From Gammaproteobacteria bacterium (GTDB taxonomy: Bacteria > Pseudomonadota > Gammaproteobacteria > Ga0077536), in NCBI GenBank assembly GCA_016209015.1, contig JACQWY010000023.1, forward strand, positions 1 to 64,000: a DNA stretch of 64,000 nucleotides, read 5' to 3'. The notes below the pieces were generated by a model that worked only from the letters and a program-made list of their open reading frames with translations, did not search any database and had not been told where the DNA came from. The translations under genes and the position numbers were made by a program. Below are positions 8,380 through 58,384 of the stretch, piece after piece; within the stretch, counting starts at the first letter, position 1; each line of letters starts with the position of its first letter.

Positions 8380-9176
8380 GTGAACTCCTAATCAGTATCA
8401 GTCACCTGAGGTGTCAGAGCCGGCGCACACGAGCGCGCCGGTGCCTGGTGGTAATCCGGGAGCGCGCGGCAAAAGAAGCGCGTCCCGAGTGAATGGCCCG
8501 TGGGTGCGCCCGTCGCGGCCCGGCACGATCCCCTGCGCAGCGCCCCGCGCCGCGAGGCGGGGGCAAGGGTGCCGGCGCGCGCGGCGCCGTTCAGACTTGG
8601 CCGTGTGGCCCTTTCCTGGCGTCGGCGCATGCTCCGGCATGCGCGCATCTGCGGGCGTCCGCGCGCTTCACGGGCGCATCGGCGCGGTGTGGCAGCGTCC
8701 CGCGGCACGGACGTTCAGCCCTGCTTCGGGCGCGCATCGCGCCGGCCGCGACCGCGCTCCGCCATTCTGAGCTGCAGTCCCTGCAGACGCTCGCCGAGGG
8801 CGTGGAAACGCGCCTCGTCTGCGCCCGCCGCGCCCTTTCGGGCGAAAAAATCCCCCTTGCGCGCAGGCCTGCACCGCGCGGCGTCCAATGCATTCATGTC
8901 GATCATCCCGTAGTTATGCGTACCGTGCGCTGTCCCGCGCACGGCGCGTGGTCATCGAGTCCGCCATTCCCCGAGGCATCGATGCGAACTCGCCGCAGCT
9001 CCATGGCTCCTCTTCGTCGCGCGCGCTGCCGAGCATTCACTTCGAGCACGCGTACGAATTCCGAAACCGGGCTTAGTTTCGACGTGCCTCGAGTGAGTCT
9101 TTACACTCTTTTGCATTGTTTGAGATGCAGTTCCCAAACACGCAAATTGCAGGTGGAGCAGCCGTTTTGCTCGCGT
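8380..9176. other. 797-bp region without a convincing gene
   Basis: Short ORFs exist on both strands (for example minus-strand 8715-8942), but none has a clear ribosome binding site plus protein-like composition. The part nearest 8400 should hold the promoter of the secreted-protein gene. The 9080-9180 end is AT-richer and lies 3' of the MFS gene. It may hide a decayed gene or a small RNA. Confidence 0.5.
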
Positions 9177-10607
9177 TCAACGCACCGTGCGCGAGCGCAA
9201 TGGCGGCGCGATCGCTTCGAGCGATAGCCGCTCCGCATCGATGCCCCAGCGCCATGCGACGAAGGCGGCGAGGATAACTGCGCACGCGCCGAACGCATAG
9301 CCCGCGAAGACGTGCAGGCGATCCCCGCTCGCGATCAGCGCACCGAACAACGCGGGCGCGAGGAAGCCGCCTGCGCCCGTGCCGAGCGCATAGAAGACGG
9401 CAATGGCGAGTGCGCGCATCTCGAGCGGAAAGACTTCGCTCGCCGTCAGATAGGCGGAGCTTGCAGCGGGCGAGGCGAGGAAGAACACCGCAGACCACGC
9501 GAGCGTCTGATTGACCGCATCGAAGCGCCCGCTCAGGAACGCCACGCCGGCGGCGAGCAAGGCGACGCCGGAGCCGGCATACGTCGCCGCAATCATGGTG
9601 CGCCGGCCGAGGCGATCGAAGAGCGGACCGAGCAGCAGCGGGCCGAGCACGTTCGCCGCCGCGAACGGCAGCACGTAGAGCCCGACGCGCGCCTCGGCCA
9701 CGCCGTAGAAGCGCGTGAGCACGAGCGCGTAGGTGAAGAAGATCGCGTTGTAGAAGAACGCCTGCGAGATCATGAGCGCGAGTACGACGAGGCTGCGGCG
9801 GCGATAGCGCCGCACGAGCACGTCGAGGACTTCGCGCAGGTCCGGCAGCGCATCGCGCACCGCGGCGGCTGCCGTGTCCGCCCCGCGCGGCGCCTCGGGT
9901 CGCGACTCGATCGCCGCCACGATGCGCGCCGCTTCTTCCGCACGACCCTGCGCGATCAACCAGCGCGGACTCTCCGGCACGTCGCGCCGGACACGCAGGA
10001 TCGCCATCGCGAGCACCGCCCCGAGCAGGAACGCGGCGCGCCAGCCGAGCACGGGGCCGAGCACGCGCTCGTCGAGCAGCACGAGGGAGAGCAGCGCGCC
10101 GAGCGCCGCGCCGAGCCAGAAGCTGCCGTTGATCGCGAGGTTCACGCGGCCGCGCACGCGCGCCGGCACGAGCTCGTCGATCGCGGAATTGATCGCCGCG
10201 TATTCGCCGCCGATACCGAGGCCGGTGCAGAAGCGGCAGATCGCGAAGCTCACATAACCGATTGCGCAGCCGCTCGCGACCGTCGCGCCGAGATAGACGG
10301 CGAGCGTGACCAGGAAGAGCCGTTTGCGGCCGAGCACGTCCGCGAGCCGGCCGAAGACGAGCGCGCCGAGCACGGCGCCGCCGACGTAGAGCGAACCCGA
10401 CCAGCCGATTTCGGCGGTCGTGAGCGCGAGCGTGTCGGGCCGCTGCAGCACGCCGCCGAGCGCGCCGACGAGCGTGACCTCGAGACCGTCGAGCACCCAG
10501 GCGATGCCGAGCGCGACGACGATCCGCCCGTGCCAGCGCGACCAGGGCAGGCGATCGAGGCGGGTGGGGATATCGGGTGCGTCGGGTGTAGGGGAGTCGA
10601 CCGCCAT
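9177..10607 (-). CDS. MFS transporter (sugar/aromatic-acid porter type)
   Basis: A 476-residue twelve-helix major facilitator. The family loop motif between helices 2 and 3 is clear (GRLADVLGRKRLF). The sugar-porter-like motif PESPRWLIAQGR follows helix 6, and a second GRR-type loop (FDRLGRRTM) sits between helices 8 and 9. EYAAINSAIDELVP in helix 5 resembles aromatic-acid:H+ symporters (AAHS) and sialate/sugar porters. It would sit in the inner membrane and import an organic acid or sugar. It is divergent from the monooxygenase gene at 10917 across a 309-bp gap, so it may feed that pathway. Confidence 0.88.
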   Translation of the reverse strand: MAVDSPTPDAPDIPTRLDRLPWSRWHGRIVVALGIAWVLDGLEVTLVGALGGVLQRPDTLALTTAEIGWSGSLYVGGAVLGALVFGRLADVLGRKRLFLVTLAVYLGATVASGCAIGYVSFAICRFCTGLGIGGEYAAINSAIDELVPARVRGRVNLAINGSFWLGAALGALLSLVLLDERVLGPVLGWRAAFLLGAVLAMAILRVRRDVPESPRWLIAQGRAEEAARIVAAIESRPEAPRGADTAAAAVRDALPDLREVLDVLVRRYRRRSLVVLALMISQAFFYNAIFFTYALVLTRFYGVAEARVGLYVLPFAAANVLGPLLLGPLFDRLGRRTMIAATYAGSGVALLAAGVAFLSGRFDAVNQTLAWSAVFFLASPAASSAYLTASEVFPLEMRALAIAVFYALGTGAGGFLAPALFGALIASGDRLHVFAGYAFGACAVILAAFVAWRWGIDAERLSLEAIAPPLRSRTVR

Positions 10608-48761: not shown

Positions 48762-51700
48762 CCGCGAGCGCCTCGGCGAGGCGCTTTGCCGCACCGAAAT
48801 CCGTCTTGCCGCTGCCGAGCTTCGGTACGTCCTTCACCGTCACGATCTGGTTCGGGAGCATCAGTCCGTTCACGCCGGAGCCGGTCAATTGGCGGCGGAG
48901 CCAGCCGGGATCCAGATTCGGATCCGCGACCAGGAGCGCGATCTGCTCGCCTTTGCGCCGGTCGGGCAGGGCGACGGCGACGAGGTCGAGCTCGGCCGTG
49001 CCGAGCGCGTGGCGCACGCGCTCCTCGACGGCTGTGAGGCTCACCATCTCACCGCCGATTTTCGCGAAGCGCGAATAGCGATCGACGATGGTCAGGAAGC
49101 CGTCTTCGTCGAGATGGCCTTTGTCGCCGGTTTTGTACCAGCGCTTGCCGTCCTGCATGACGATCGCCGCATCCGTGCGCTGCGGATCGTTCAGATAGCC
49201 GAGCATGATCTGGCTGCCGCCGATGAGGATGAGGCCGTCTTTGCCGGTCGGCAGTTCGGCGAGCGTGACGGGATCGACGATGCGAAAGCTCGTGCCCGGC
49301 AGCGGCATGCCGACGGTGCCGTGCTTCGTACCCGTCTGCACGCGCCAGCTCCCGAACTCGAGCTCGTCGGGAATGTTGCAGCTCGCGACGGGCGTCGTCT
49401 CCGTGACGCCGTAGCCTTCGAGGACCTCCTTGTTGAATTTCAGCTTGAAGGCTTCGCGCACCTGCGGCGAGAGCTTCTCGGCGCCGGCAACCACGATGCG
49501 CAGCGGCTCGAACATGAGCGGCAGCACGCGCGGGTTCTTGGTGTAGAGCCGCAGGAACGTGGATGTGCCGCAGAGGATGGTGCCGCGGAAACGCGCCACG
49601 GCCTTGGCGACGCCGAGTGCATCCGTGGGATCGGGATGCGTTACCATCGGGATGCCCTCGACGAGCGGCATGAACGTCGTCACCGTGAGTCCGAACGCAT
49701 GGAAGAGCGGCAGCGTCGCCATGACGACGTCAGTGACCTCGGTGTTCAGCACGTCCGAGATCTGCTTGACGTTCGCCATGATGTTGCGATGGGACAGCAC
49801 CACGCCCTTCGGCACGCCTTCACTGCCGCTCGAGAAGAGTATCGCGGCGGGCGCGTCGATGTCGGTACGCCTGCAATAGAGGCTGCATAGTGCACGCGTC
49901 GGCAGCAGCGTGACCGCGGCGGCGGCGAGGAGCTTCGACGTGCCGCGGATCTCGCGCCGGATCTCGTCGAGCATCACGACCTGCCGGCCGGCGAGCACGG
50001 GTGCGAGATCGATGCCGCGATCGTCGAGCCGCGTCAGAAAGCGGCGCGCCGTGACGATGGTCCGGATTTCCGCCTGCTCGATGGCGGCCACGATTGCTTC
50101 GCGCGGCGCCGTGTAGTTGAGGTTCACGACCGTACGGCCGAGCATGAGCAGCGCCATGTTGGACAACGCCCCGCCGCTCGACGTCGGCAGCAGAATGCCG
50201 ACGTTGCGGCCCTCGATGCGCCGTCTCAGCAGGCCGCGGATCAGTATGGCTGCGATGACGAACCGTCGCCGCGTGAACTCCGTGCCGTCGGAATCCGCGA
50301 CCGCGGCTTCGGAGGGGGTGTGCTTCGCCGCTTGCAGCCACGCGCGCGGCAGCGCCGGCAGGAGCGCGGTATAACCCTCCCAGGCGGTGATGGAGAGCTC
50401 GAAGATGCGCTGCTTCAACAGCGGGGCCGGCGTCGTTGCCGGCAGCGGCGGGCCGAACGCGACGATGACTTCGCGTCTCCGTCCGCTCTGACGCAGTTGC
50501 TTCAGCCCGAGGCTCGAGCGCGAGAAGCTGCTGCCCCACAGGCCGCGCAGATAGAACGGGACGATGACGGCGTGCGCGCCGGCAGCGGCCTTTTCGTAGC
50601 CGCGCTTGAACTCCCCGAGGTGCCCGGTGCGGCTGATCGCGCCTTCGGGAAACAGGCACACCAGCTCGCCGGCATTGAGCAGGCGCGAGATCGTCGCGAG
50701 CGCGGCGTTGTAATCGCCGGCCGCAATCGGTACGCAGCCGAAGAAGTCGAGAAAGCGCTGCAGATACCAGCGCTCGTAAATGCTGCGTTTCATCACGAAG
50801 CGCACCGGCCGCGGCGAGGCCATCTGTACCATCGCCCAATCGATCCAGCTGATGTGGTTGCCGAGCAGCAGCACGCCGCCGTCGCGGGGCAGGTTCTCGA
50901 AGCCGAAGACGCGCAGCTTGAAGCGCGTGCCGAAAACCTGCGCGATCATGAGCCGCACGAGAGACTGGGGCAGGCGGTAGAGCGTGTACAGCGTCCCCGC
51001 CGCGGCGATCGCGGCGAGCGCGCCAAGCAGAGGGCGCGTCCCGAATCCGCCGCGCGCGGCCGCGGCGGTCGTACCGGCGAGGAAGGCGACGATCAGCGCG
51101 TGGCGCGCGAACTGCCCGGCAGCAAGTACCCGCCCGCGACAGGCATCGTCCGCCTGCAGGACGAGGAGTGTCTGCAACGGCACGACGAAGAAGCTCGACG
51201 CCGACCCCAGCAGCAGCATTTCGAGGGCCAGCGCTCCGGCTCCGGTGAATTTCGGCAGGAGGACGAGGCCTAGTGTGATGCCCAGCGCACCGATCGGTAT
51301 GAAGCCGAGCTCGAGGTGGCGGCGCGAATTCACGGCCGTTATACGCGCGCCGATGAACGCGCCCAGTGCTGCAAGAGCGGGCAATGCCTGCATCGCGCTG
51401 CGCTGGTCGAGGCCCGCGACGTCGCGGAAGAACCAGGGCAGCAGCGCGAGCACGGTATGAGCGAGCGCCCAGTAGAGCGCCAGTCCTACCACGGCGTCAC
51501 GCACCGCGCCGGCTTGCGCGATCCGCGCCAGATTCGCCCGCAGGTACCGGGCATGCAGCCACGCGCGACGGTCGAATTCGAGACCCGCGGCGGCGGGCGG
51601 CACGGCCGGCAGTTGCCACGCCGCGATCAGGCCGCCCAGGCCTGCGGCCAGGATCGTCGCGAGCGCCGGCGCGCCGCCCGAGACGCCGTCGAAGGCCGGG

Positions 51701-54230: not shown

Positions 54231-54267
54231 AAGCGGACCCGCCATGCCGGCGGGTCGCGCAGAAGAT

Positions 54268-54579
54268 GGTGGGCCCGGTAGGACTCGAACCTACGACCAA
54301 GGGATTCACTCGACCCGGTCTTTCGACCGGAAGTGGACTATCTCATCACCCGCGGCACGGGCCGGTAGGGTGCGGGATGCTCTGGCCTGTCATTAAGAGC
54401 ACTCGAGCTCTCAGGTAGTCTCTGCGCCTTCCGAAGGTGTACCTCCGGCTCGGCTCAGGATTGCCGTCAGCGTGACTGTTACGGTTTCCCTGAATTCATC
54501 CCGTTCAATTCGCGCCTTTCGAACGCGAAGGCACCATTACGATGAGTCCCCTGCTCTAACCGACTGAGCTACAGGCCCG
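54268..54579 (-). tRNA. tRNA-Ile (CAU, lysidine type) interrupted by a group I intron
   Basis: Exon 1 is 54579-54543 (37 nt) and exon 2 is 54307-54268 (40 nt, with CCA). The joined 77-nt tRNA has acceptor stem GGGCCTG/CGGGCCC, D arm GCTC...GAGC, anticodon stem GGGGA/TCCCT with loop CTCATAA (anticodon CAU), and T arm GTAGG/CCTAC. The anticodon arm and TTGGTC variable region resemble isoleucine-2 tRNA, which becomes lysidine-modified by TilS, rather than elongator methionine tRNA. It lies 50 bases downstream of rpoD on the same strand and may be read through from that operon. Confidence 0.93.
54308..54542 (-). ncRNA. group I intron (IC3-like) in the tRNA-Ile(CAU) anticodon loop
   Basis: A 235-nt self-splicing-type intron inserted right after the anticodon. 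The 5' exon ends in U, the guide sequence GUG near the intron start pairs with CAU, and the intron ends in G. Core elements are present in order: P2 stem (TTCGCG...CGCGAA), P region TTCAGGGAAACC, Q region AATCCTGAGCC (pairs to form P4), R region AGAGACTA and S region ATAGTCC (P7). A P8-like hairpin and a P9 hairpin CGGTC-GAAA-GACCG follow. No reading frame for a homing endonuclease exists inside. The site and small size match the Azoarcus tRNA-Ile intron. Confidence 0.93.
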
Positions 54580-54629: not shown

Positions 54630-56480
54630 TCAGTCGAGGAACGTGCGCAATCGCTCGGAGCGCGAGGGATGACGCAGCTTGCGCAGCGCCTTCGCCTCGA
54701 TCTGCCGGATGCGCTCGCGCGTCACGTCGAACTGTTTGCCGACTTCTTCCAGCGTGTGATCCGTGTTCATGTCGATGCCAAAGCGCATGCGCAGCACTTT
54801 CGCTTCGCGCGGCGTCAGCCCTTCGAGCACTTCGCGGGTGCTGCGGCACAGACCTTCGAACGTCGCCGAGTCGATCGGCGCCTGGATGTTCGTGTCCTCG
54901 ATGAAATCGCCGAGATGCGAATCCTCGTCGTCGCCTATCGGCGTCTCCATGGAGATCGGCTCTTTGGCGATCTTCAGCACCTTGCGGATCTTGTCCTCGG
55001 GCATATCCATGCGGATCGCCAGTTCTTCCGGCGTCGGCTCGCGGCCCTTCTCCTGGAGGATTTGGCGCGAAATGCGGTTGAGCTTGTTGATCGTCTCGAT
55101 CATGTGCACAGGAATGCGGATCGTGCGCGCCTGATCGGCGATTGAACGGGTGATCGCCTGGCGAATCCACCACGTCGCATAGGTCGAGAATTTGTAGCCG
55201 CGACGGTATTCGAACTTGTCGACCGCTTTCATCAGACCGATGTTGCCCTCCTGGATCAGATCCAGGAACAGCAGACCACGGTTCGTGTACTTCTTCGCGA
55301 TCGAGATCACGAGACGCAGGTTGGCCTCGACCATCTCCTTCTTCGCGCGACGCGCTTTCGCTTCGCCGATGGACATGCGGCGGTTGATGTCCTTGATCTC
55401 GCTGATCGTGACACCGTTCTGCTCTTCGACGAGCGCGAGCCTCGCCTGCGCGGCCTCGATCTCCCCGGCACGCTCCTTGATCGCGGGCGCATACGGCTTC
55501 TTCGATCGCGTCAGCGTCTTGAGCCAGTTCGGGTTCGTCTCGGCGTCCACGAACACGTTGAGGAAGTCCTTGCGCGGCATTTTGCACTGCTTCACGCAGA
55601 CGTCCATGATGACCTTTTCCTGCTGCCGGATTTCCTCGACCACGCGACGCACGATTTCGGCAAGCGCCTCGCTCAATTTCGGCACGAGCTTGAATTCCAG
55701 GAAGCGCTCCTGCAGCTCCTTGCGCAGCTCCATCGTGCGCGCGTGGCTGCGGCCGTTGCGCTTCGCGGCGGCCTGGATCTTCTTGTAGAGCTTGCGGAAT
55801 TCCTCGAAGCGGTTCTTCACCTCCTCGGGATCGAGCTGACTCGCGATTGGATCGCTCGTTTCCTCGCTGTTCTCCTCTTCTTCGTCGTTGCCCGCGACGA
55901 CTTCGGGCTCCGCGATCTCGATGTCCTCGCGGGGCTCCGGTGCGGCGTCCGCGCTGAAATCGACGAAGCCGCTGATGATATCGGTGATCTTCGCCTCGCC
56001 GGCCGCGGTGCGATCGTATTCACCGAGGAACATGTCGGCGACGGAGGGGAAGTCCGCGAGTGCCGACAGCACCTGATTGAGGCCGTCCTCGATGCGCTTG
56101 GCGATTTTGATTTCGCCTTCGCGCGTCAGGAGATCGACGGTGCCCATCTCGCGCATGTACATGCGCACGGGGTCGGTCGTGCGGCCGAACTCGTTGTCCA
56201 CCGCGGCGATAGCGGCGGCCGCTTCCTCGGCGGCCTCTTCGTCGACATCCGTCTCGTTCAGCAATATGGAGTCGAGATCGGGCGCGGTCTCGTGGACCGT
56301 GATCCCCATATCGTTGATCATATTGATGATGTCTTCGATCTGCTCCGGATCGACGATATCGTCGGGCAGATGATCGTTGACTTCGTGATACGTCAGGAAG
56401 CCCTGCTCTTTCCCTTTGGCGATGAGCCGCTTGAGCTGGGACTGCTCGTCGTTCGTTTCGATGTCTTCGAGAGGATCCAT
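54630..56480 (-). CDS. rpoD: RNA polymerase sigma factor RpoD (sigma-70)
   Basis: A 616-residue primary sigma factor. Region 1.1 is at the start ([24 protein letters not shown]). The 1.2 region has [20 protein letters not shown], a non-conserved insert follows (with an acidic NDEEEEN stretch), and 2.1-2.4 contains [20 protein letters not shown] and [20 protein letters not shown]. Region 3 has [15 protein letters not shown], and 4.2 has the helix-turn-helix [20 protein letters not shown]. It is the last gene of rpsU-yqeY-dnaG-rpoD. A consensus -10 lies in the 149-base dnaG-rpoD gap, so it probably has its own promoter as well. Confidence 0.98.
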
Positions 56481-56629: not shown

Positions 56630-58384
56630 CTACTTACTGTCCCGGACACGGCCGCGTCGAAGTGCGTCACGTACCTCCTGTGGCAGGTCTTTCGGACTCG
56701 TCACTTCACTCCCGAGCGCGCTCTGACGGAACTTCCTGTCCGCCATCTTGAGCAGGCCTTCGATCGCACCGCGGAATTCTGCTTCCCAGAGATCCTCGGG
56801 CAGCGTGAGCCGCGTGCCGAGCAGCGTCGAGAGCTCTTCCTGCGCGATCACGTCGCGCAGGCGTTCCAGCAATTCGCCCGTATTCGTCGCGGCGGATTCC
56901 CGTGCGACGGTCAGGGTTTCTGCAAGCAGGCGATTCTCGCCCTCGCTCGGAAGCTCGCTTAGCGGCAGATCGGCGACGCTCTTCACGAGCTCAGGACGAT
57001 TGATCAGCATGACCAGCGTTCGCAGCGCGCGGGAGGGCACGCCGCTCCGGCGTGAGGACCCACTCGGTCGCTGACGCGACTCGGCGGTCGCTGGCCTGTA
57101 TTCGCGGCTCAGCAGACGTTCCGGATCGCCGAGCGAAGTTTGCGCGAGCTCGGCTAGGCGCTCGGCGAGGAGGTGGCGATAGGCACCTTGCGGCAGCTTG
57201 CCGATCAACGGACGTGCCTGGGCGATGAGTCGGGCGCGGCCCTCGATGGTACTGAGATCGGTTTGCTGGCCGAGTTCCTGGAACAGGAAATCCGACAGGC
57301 TGCGTGCGCCAGCCGGGTCGCGGAATACCGCCGGACCCTCGGCGCGCACGAGGCTGTCGGGATCGTGGCCCTGCGGCATGAATCGGAAGCCGAGCTTGCG
57401 CCCTTCCGAGAGAAGCGGCAGGCCGGCTTCGAGTGCACGCCAGGCGGCTTTGCGACCGGCATTGTCGCCGTCGAAGCAGCACACGACTTCCGGCGTCACG
57501 CGAAACAGTTGCTCGAGTTGCTCCGCCGTCGTCGAGGTCCCGAGCGTCGCGACCGCGTTGTCGACACCATGCTGGATCAGACTCACGACATCCATGTAGC
57601 CCTCGACGAGCAGCAGCGAGTCAGGCTTCGCCGCTTTAGCGAAGTACAGACCATAGACCTCCTGGCGCTTGTGGAAGATCGGCGTCTCGGGCGAGTTCAG
57701 ATATTTCGGCTCACCGTTGTCGATGACGCGTCCGCCGAACCCGACGACGCGTCCGCGCCGGTCGTGGATCGGGAACATGATCCGGTCACGGAAGCGATCG
57801 TAATGTCCGCCGCCGTCCCGGCGCAGCACGAGTCCCGCCTGCTCCAGGAGCTCGATCCGGGCTGGGCTCGTACCCAGCGACGCGACGACCGTGTCCCACG
57901 CCGGGGGCGCATAGCCGATGCCGAAATGCTTGGCCGTCTTGCCGGTCAGGCCCCGCCCTTTAAGGTAAGCGACGGCGCGCTCGCGCGTGGGATGCTCCTT
58001 GAGCAGCTTCGCGAACAGTGCCTGCGCATCCACCATGATCCCGTAGAGTCCGGAGAAGTCCTCGCGCGGCGCTGTGCCGCCGCTTTCATAGACGACCTCC
58101 ATGCGCGCGACGCTCGCGAGCTCCTCGATCGCCTCGGTGAAGGCGAGTCCGCGCTGCTGCATGAGGAAGTTCACGGCCGAGCCGTGAGCGCCGCACCCGA
58201 AGCAGTGATAGAACTGTTTCTCCTGGCTGACCGTGAACGACGGCGTCTTTTCCTGGTGGAACGGGCACAGGCCCTGGAAGTCCTTGCCGGACTTCTTGAG
58301 CTTCACGACGGGATCGACGACGTCTACGATATCGACTCGTGCGAGCAGATCGGCGATGAAGGATTTCGAGATGAGGCCGGCCAT
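56630..58384 (-). CDS. dnaG: DNA primase DnaG
   Basis: A 584-residue primase that lays RNA primers during replication. The N-terminal CHC2 zinc finger has Cys40, His43, Cys61 and Cys64 (CPFHQEKTPSF, HCFGCGAHG). The catalytic core includes GRVVGFGGRVID and the TOPRIM motif LLVEGYMDVVSL with the DGDNAG acidic motif. A C-terminal DnaB-binding region ends with DRKFRQSALG. It is the third gene of the macromolecular synthesis operon, after yqeY. Confidence 0.98.
   Translation of the reverse strand: MAGLISKSFIADLLARVDIVDVVDPVVKLKKSGKDFQGLCPFHQEKTPSFTVSQEKQFYHCFGCGAHGSAVNFLMQQRGLAFTEAIEELASVARMEVVYESGGTAPREDFSGLYGIMVDAQALFAKLLKEHPTRERAVAYLKGRGLTGKTAKHFGIGYAPPAWDTVVASLGTSPARIELLEQAGLVLRRDGGGHYDRFRDRIMFPIHDRRGRVVGFGGRVIDNGEPKYLNSPETPIFHKRQEVYGLYFAKAAKPDSLLLVEGYMDVVSLIQHGVDNAVATLGTSTTAEQLEQLFRVTPEVVCCFDGDNAGRKAAWRALEAGLPLLSEGRKLGFRFMPQGHDPDSLVRAEGPAVFRDPAGARSLSDFLFQELGQQTDLSTIEGRARLIAQARPLIGKLPQGAYRHLLAERLAELAQTSLGDPERLLSREYRPATAESRQRPSGSSRRSGVPSRALRTLVMLINRPELVKSVADLPLSELPSEGENRLLAETLTVARESAATNTGELLERLRDVIAQEELSTLLGTRLTLPEDLWEAEFRGAIEGLLKMADRKFRQSALGSEVTSPKDLPQEVRDALRRGRVRDSK

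Follow-up and report, generated by a model that had tools for sequence, protein, structure and literature searches.

The closest described counterpart of the intron considered here is the subgroup IC3 intron in the tRNA-Ile(CAU) gene of Azoarcus sp. BH72, which we take to be inserted after U36, the same site as in the gene described below. In Acidovorax and Burkholderia, too, tRNAscan-SE 2.0 has reported group I introns in tRNA-Ile2 genes; 36 genomes lack fMet or Ile2 owing to such introns, whose subgroup is not stated in that report (PMC8450103). Like the present intron, the Acidovorax and Burkholderia examples are group I, occupy the same tRNA gene and are missed by standard tRNA finders. 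For phages, a 2014 review stated that all introns observed to date were in protein-coding genes (PMC3984707), and the open-access literature searched yielded no later description of introns in phage tRNAs. The kind of intron is known already; its breadth, its subgroup and its link to phages are new.

The window, the whole 64,000 nucleotide stretch of gammaproteobacterial DNA analysed here, carries on its minus strand a tRNA-Ile2(CAU) gene (54578-54267) split by an intron and overlooked by a default tRNA scan. In gene order, a 5’ exon GGGCCTGTAGCTCAGTCGGTTAGAGCAGGGGACTCAT (54542..54578, from the 5’ strand of the acceptor stem to anticodon base U36) is followed by a 235 nt insert that begins with C and ends with G (54307..54541) and a 3’ exon AATCCCTTGGTCGTAGGTTCGAGTCCTACCGGGCCCACCA in which the CCA is encoded (54267..54306). 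The exons were delimited by sequence reading and the tRNA fold, and the intron by the Rfam Intron_gpI model RF00028, the tRNA fold and homologues. The 5’ exon ends in CTCAT, placing the intron after U36, and the spliced exons form a 77-nt tRNA with anticodon CAU that ARAGORN folds. The initial annotation had recognized a split tRNA with a 235-nt insert in the anticodon loop, in agreement with both the RF00028 match and the ARAGORN fold; its span of 54308-54542 identifies the right intron but is one base off, because it assigns the last anticodon base to the intron and leaves the terminal G on the exon side. The boundaries are 54541-54307 (minus), because these leave the anticodon loop CU-CAU-AA intact. 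All 103 loci with both exons readable among the GTDB matches listed show the same CTCAT / C...G / AATC boundaries. Their introns are 226–334 nt long, and since the longest open stretch in any of them is at most 101 codons, no homing endonuclease gene fits, as had been proposed for the window intron.

The tRNA bears the marks of a lysidine-type tRNA-Ile2, with CAU, C4-G69 and C5-G68, and is neither Met nor fMet; the C4-G69 and C5-G68 pairs are TilS determinants. Immediately upstream on the same strand lies rpoD (54630..56480, minus; 616 aa), which corresponds to the sigma-70 context noted initially, and dnaG (56630-58384) lies upstream of rpoD. No promoter or terminator match was found in the interval between rpoD and tRNA-Ile2. 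A separate ARAGORN call in the window, a tRNA-Ala(GGC) at 50637-50728 (+), lies antisense in a long coding frame without an Rfam tRNA match, and is probably false because the real tRNA-Ala(GGC) is elsewhere.

A covariance search, proposed at the outset as the check on this locus, matches the insert to RF00028 at 64.6 bits (E 9e-16; model positions 1-253 of 253), above the gathering threshold of 50 bits. It is the sole RF00028 match in the 5.7-Mb genome, and its score is lower than those of most tRNA-Ile2 relatives. The intron has the P3-P8 core, the P4-P6 domain, the guanosine-binding helix P7, a U.G wobble at the splice site, an internal guide and a terminal G. The guide GUG (intron nt 8-10; 54532..54534, minus) pairs with the CAU of the 5’ exon, and in P1 the CAU plus the first intron C face GGUG, with U36.G8 at the splice site. 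Every structural element named in the initial annotation can be located: in addition to this guide, the P4 pair is UUCAGG/CCUGAG, the R/S pair corresponds to the P7 halves GACUA/UAGUC, the P9 hairpin (54315..54330, minus) has a GAAA cap, and the final G recurs in 103/103 readable homologues among the matches listed. A 34-nt region between the 5’ strand of P7 and the 3’ strand of P3 (54382..54415, minus) appears as an insert relative to RF00028 and forms two hairpins, P7.1 (CCUG/CAGG) and P7.2 (AGAGC/GCUCU). All core helices are intact.

The variable intron helices are backed by covariation across 119 homologues. In counts of pairs per cell in a MAFFT alignment of the 119 pre-tRNAs, P1, P3, P4, P6, P7 and P7.1 are paired in 99–100% of cells with little variation (100% for P1, 99.6% for P7.1). 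P2, P6a, P7.2, P8 and P9 are paired in 92–100% of cells, with 238, 157, 90, 29 and 282 double-change cells, respectively; P7.2 reaches 100%, and P9, at 92%, has compensatory changes in 6/6 pairs. P5 is paired in 79% of cells, also with double changes, and the anticodon stem in 99%. As a control, sliding the helix partners reduced pairing in all intron helices.

Introns of this type are widespread in the Gammaproteobacteria. The window intron finds a BLAST match in 32/369 genomes of the class, and 23/369, the window’s included, carry an intron in tRNA-Ile2 after U36 with readable exons. One further genome (G046) has a relative of the P7.1/P7.2 type in tRNA-Lys(CUU) (L006), which suggests a jump between tRNA genes. 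The expectation that bacterial tRNA introns of this kind are few does not hold, as a pattern scan of GTDB contigs recovers at least 119 stretches with the intron. Carriers among the GTDB matches listed include Dyella, Luteimonas, Lysobacter, Rhodanobacter, Rudaea, Dokdonella, Steroidobacter, Woeseiaceae, Granulosicoccus, Acidiferrobacterales, Chromatiales and Salinisphaerales. Most of the listed intron loci with enough flank have rpoD directly upstream and often dnaG too, and the intact tRNA-Ile2 genes of the window’s family likewise adjoin rpoD; the order dnaG-rpoD-tRNA-Ile2 is kept in intron loci and rpoD-tRNA-Ile2 in intronless ones. A phylum-wide draw, in which the share of other classes is not visible, gave nothing convincing outside the class, and a plasmid search gave no intron match. 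At one locus (L209:3400-4113), a tRNA-Ile2 gene that contains the intron but whose 3’ exon is disrupted sits beside an intact copy, possibly a stage of intron loss through gene replacement.

The initial annotation had asked whether the intron was inherited vertically or had moved, and suggested a survey of related genomes. About 28 of the 36 genomes of the window’s family have a full 77-nt tRNA-Ile2 with 94–99% identity to the window exons, one base separates those exons from the intact family tRNA-Ile2, and a split copy was seen in one of the 36, the window’s own. On the RpoD tree, the window lies inside this intronless family, which requires either a single gain or two or more losses. Acquisition in the window’s lineage is therefore favoured over loss elsewhere, by one step, because the family is otherwise empty at the tRNA-Ile2 locus. 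An ancestral gammaproteobacterial intron, inherited vertically and lost in most lineages, is a less likely alternative that fits part of the data: most carriers share the same orthologous, rpoD-linked locus, and intron and RpoD distances correlate across 79 carriers (Spearman 0.43, permutation p 0.0005; L118, L135 and L200 excluded as long-branch outliers), with the RpoD-nearest carrier among the five nearest introns in 54/79. This correlation indicates that the intron is commonly inherited within genera and families. Three observations fit an ancestral intron poorly. First, it occurs in just 1/36 genomes of the family and 23/369 of the class. Second, when carriers are ordered by intron distance from the window, the introns of its three closest hosts come 29th, 28th and 41st. 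Third, in some pairs of carriers, such as Rhodanobacter (L167) and Luteimonas (L188), the introns are closer to each other than the hosts are. The intron tree places the window without strong support. The distribution is broadly congruent with the hosts within genera and families, yet patchy, and the window’s intron was probably gained in its own lineage.

The shared site raises the alternative that the window intron belongs to the IC3 lineage of Azoarcus and cyanobacterial tRNA introns, by inheritance or by transfer. The insertion site after U36, as the initial annotation had pointed out, and the GUG guide are those of the Azoarcus intron, and both introns have GAAA-capped P2 and P9 and a terminal G. 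The 34-nt insert, however, marks a different core: P7.1/P7.2 between P7 and P3 is the hallmark of subgroup IA, and the Azoarcus ribozyme sequence has 3 nt in its place (PMC8890501; the sequence used here is that published one except at the positions randomised there). A core tree of 58 rows, built on a short alignment, splits the introns at 100/100. On one side are the IC3 introns, comprising those of Azoarcus, tRNA-Leu, tRNA-Arg and tRNA-Ile2 after U33; on the other are all tRNA-Ile2 introns after U36 of the window’s type, the tRNA-Lys intron and phage introns. As a BLAST query, the Azoarcus intron matched mostly tRNA-Leu(UAA) introns and nothing in the window’s genome. Membership of the IC3 lineage is accordingly very improbable, and the suggestion that the window adds another lineage to the Azoarcus intron is not borne out. 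Judged by P7.1/P7.2 and the short-alignment tree, the window intron is probably of group IA type, which is consistent with the IA2 assignment of a bacterial intron that has homologues in Staphylococcus phages (PMC4853749). Since separate clades meet at one site, the same bond of tRNA-Ile2 appears to have been occupied twice, by two group I lineages that would be related only through their common group I core.

Two tRNA-Ile2(CAU) genes (L015 and L016) carry an IC3-type intron elsewhere in this loop, after U33, and the L016 genome additionally has a tRNA-Leu(UAA) intron (L011). Many Gammaproteobacteria have IC3 introns in tRNA-Leu(UAA), tRNA-Leu(CAA) and tRNA-Ser(UGA) (L280-L292), including one genome of the window’s family (G015, L286), where the intron was overlooked by a strictly filtered RF00028 survey.

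The P7.1/P7.2 motif is common to 47 viral stretches. IA2-type phage introns in terminase, DNA polymerase and psbA genes of Staphylococcus, Vibrio and Synechococcus phages have a similar core and, sharing P7.1/P7.2, fall on the window intron’s side of the 100/100 split; they differ in residing mostly in protein genes, some near homing endonuclease genes. The Klebsiella jumbo phages Muenster, KP13-7 and RCIP0023 contain an unannotated split CAU tRNA with the intron at the same site, as do phiKp_21, a shorter record, and OU509535. In Muenster the intron lies within a tRNA array at 302866-303096 (L277:4042-4272) and scores 104 bits against Rfam, next to 90–101 bits for four viral-contig introns. 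The spliced Muenster tRNA is not called by ARAGORN, although the acceptor stem, the anticodon stem and the T stem are all paired; in one of the four other Klebsiella phage records, the tRNA backbone differs from that of Muenster. These phage introns share the site, the CAU exon, the GUG guide and P7.1/P7.2 with the window intron, at 72–73% identity across roughly half the query, and differ in being AT-rich, in a phage tRNA array and accompanied by an HNH endonuclease gene a few hundred bases downstream. Among the BLAST matches to the phage tRNA introns are Staphylococcus phage introns; two Vibrio phage matches and one Synechococcus phage match were rejected as tRNA introns, the former sitting among terminase fragments and the latter adjoining psbA.

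Viral contigs from IMG/VR widen this picture. Two of them (L230 and L231) start inside the intron, and a third has its own split tRNA-Ile2. A phage-type integrase gene lies directly downstream of the intron-bearing tRNA-Ile2 on L230, which indicates that the tRNA, although split, is still used for integration. On other viral contigs, a group I intron splits tRNA-Asn(GUU) after U35 (L253) and another apparently interrupts tRNA-Ala(UGC) in its T loop (L233, ~9080-9385), and both spliced forms fold; a further intron (L262) has coding-like sequence within it. It is plausible that the tRNA arrays of Klebsiella jumbo phages act as a vehicle for the intron. An AU test of a clade that joins the Ile2 introns with one phage Ile intron gives p 0.06. 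We tentatively propose, at somewhat below an even chance, that a phage-linked IA-type lineage, unrelated to the Azoarcus IC3 intron save for the core, settled independently at the tRNA-Ile2 bond in hosts across the Gammaproteobacteria and that split tRNA-Ile2 genes of phages carry it between hosts.

In five genomes (G002, G005, G006, G016 and G019), additional pieces of the tRNA-Ile2 3’ portion, covering positions 20-77, 26-77 or 33-77, are likely copies of the attachment sites of integrated elements. In one of these genomes, a member of the window’s family (G016), a weaker group I-like match splits the T loop of the tmRNA (L014, ~1501-1782).

The split gene is the genome’s only tRNA-Ile2 found. 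An Rfam tRNA search identified 45 intact tRNA genes, two of which have a CAU anticodon; by comparison with E. coli sequences, we take these to be one elongator tRNA-Met and one initiator (fMet). Neither a second tRNA-Ile2 nor a tRNA-Ile(UAU) is among the 45; the initial annotation had tied the importance of splicing to this being the only tRNA-Ile2 gene. The assembly comprises 65 contigs and is rated 100% complete, making a missed tRNA-Ile2 gene possible but unlikely. The genome encodes tilS (166 bits), and ATA accounts for 10/162 Ile codons in six window genes, with two of the 10 in rpoD. Lysidine modification of the tRNA is predicted from the CAU anticodon, the TilS determinants and the presence of tilS.

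Splicing may proceed as follows. The pre-tRNA is probably transcribed downstream of rpoD, perhaps jointly with it. The intron would then fold, with the GUG guide pairing to the CAU anticodon, and guanosine would attack at the U36.G wobble. U36, once released, would attack after the terminal G, joining the exons at A37. Splicing would restore the anticodon loop, in which TilS has to introduce lysidine at C34 for AUA to be decoded, and should therefore be essential. From the anatomy of the intron we infer self-splicing, as the initial annotation did, and a protein cofactor could be required. That the insertion has instead decayed and no longer splices, with AUA read some other way, is the least probable reading, extremely unlikely even though the 64.6 bits fall below the scores of most tRNA-Ile2 relatives, as all core helices are intact, neither another tRNA-Ile2 nor a tRNA-Ile(UAU) gene was found, tilS is retained and AUA codons are in use. 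The intron was probably acquired in the window’s lineage from a pool circulating in Gammaproteobacteria and phages. We have high confidence in this explanation as a whole: the anatomy, covariation, sole gene, distribution and clade are demonstrated here, and the splicing, its essentiality and the route of transfer are proposed.

These introns provide a natural experiment in intron site choice, in which one bond of an essential tRNA appears to have been taken by two group I subgroups. Carriers span many gammaproteobacterial families in which empty orthologous sites are also present, and gain, loss and transfer are thus directly testable. The split tRNA genes of isolated jumbo phages run counter to the 2014 statement on phage introns and protein-coding genes (PMC3984707). 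Finally, the intron explains tRNA-Ile2 genes that seem to be absent.
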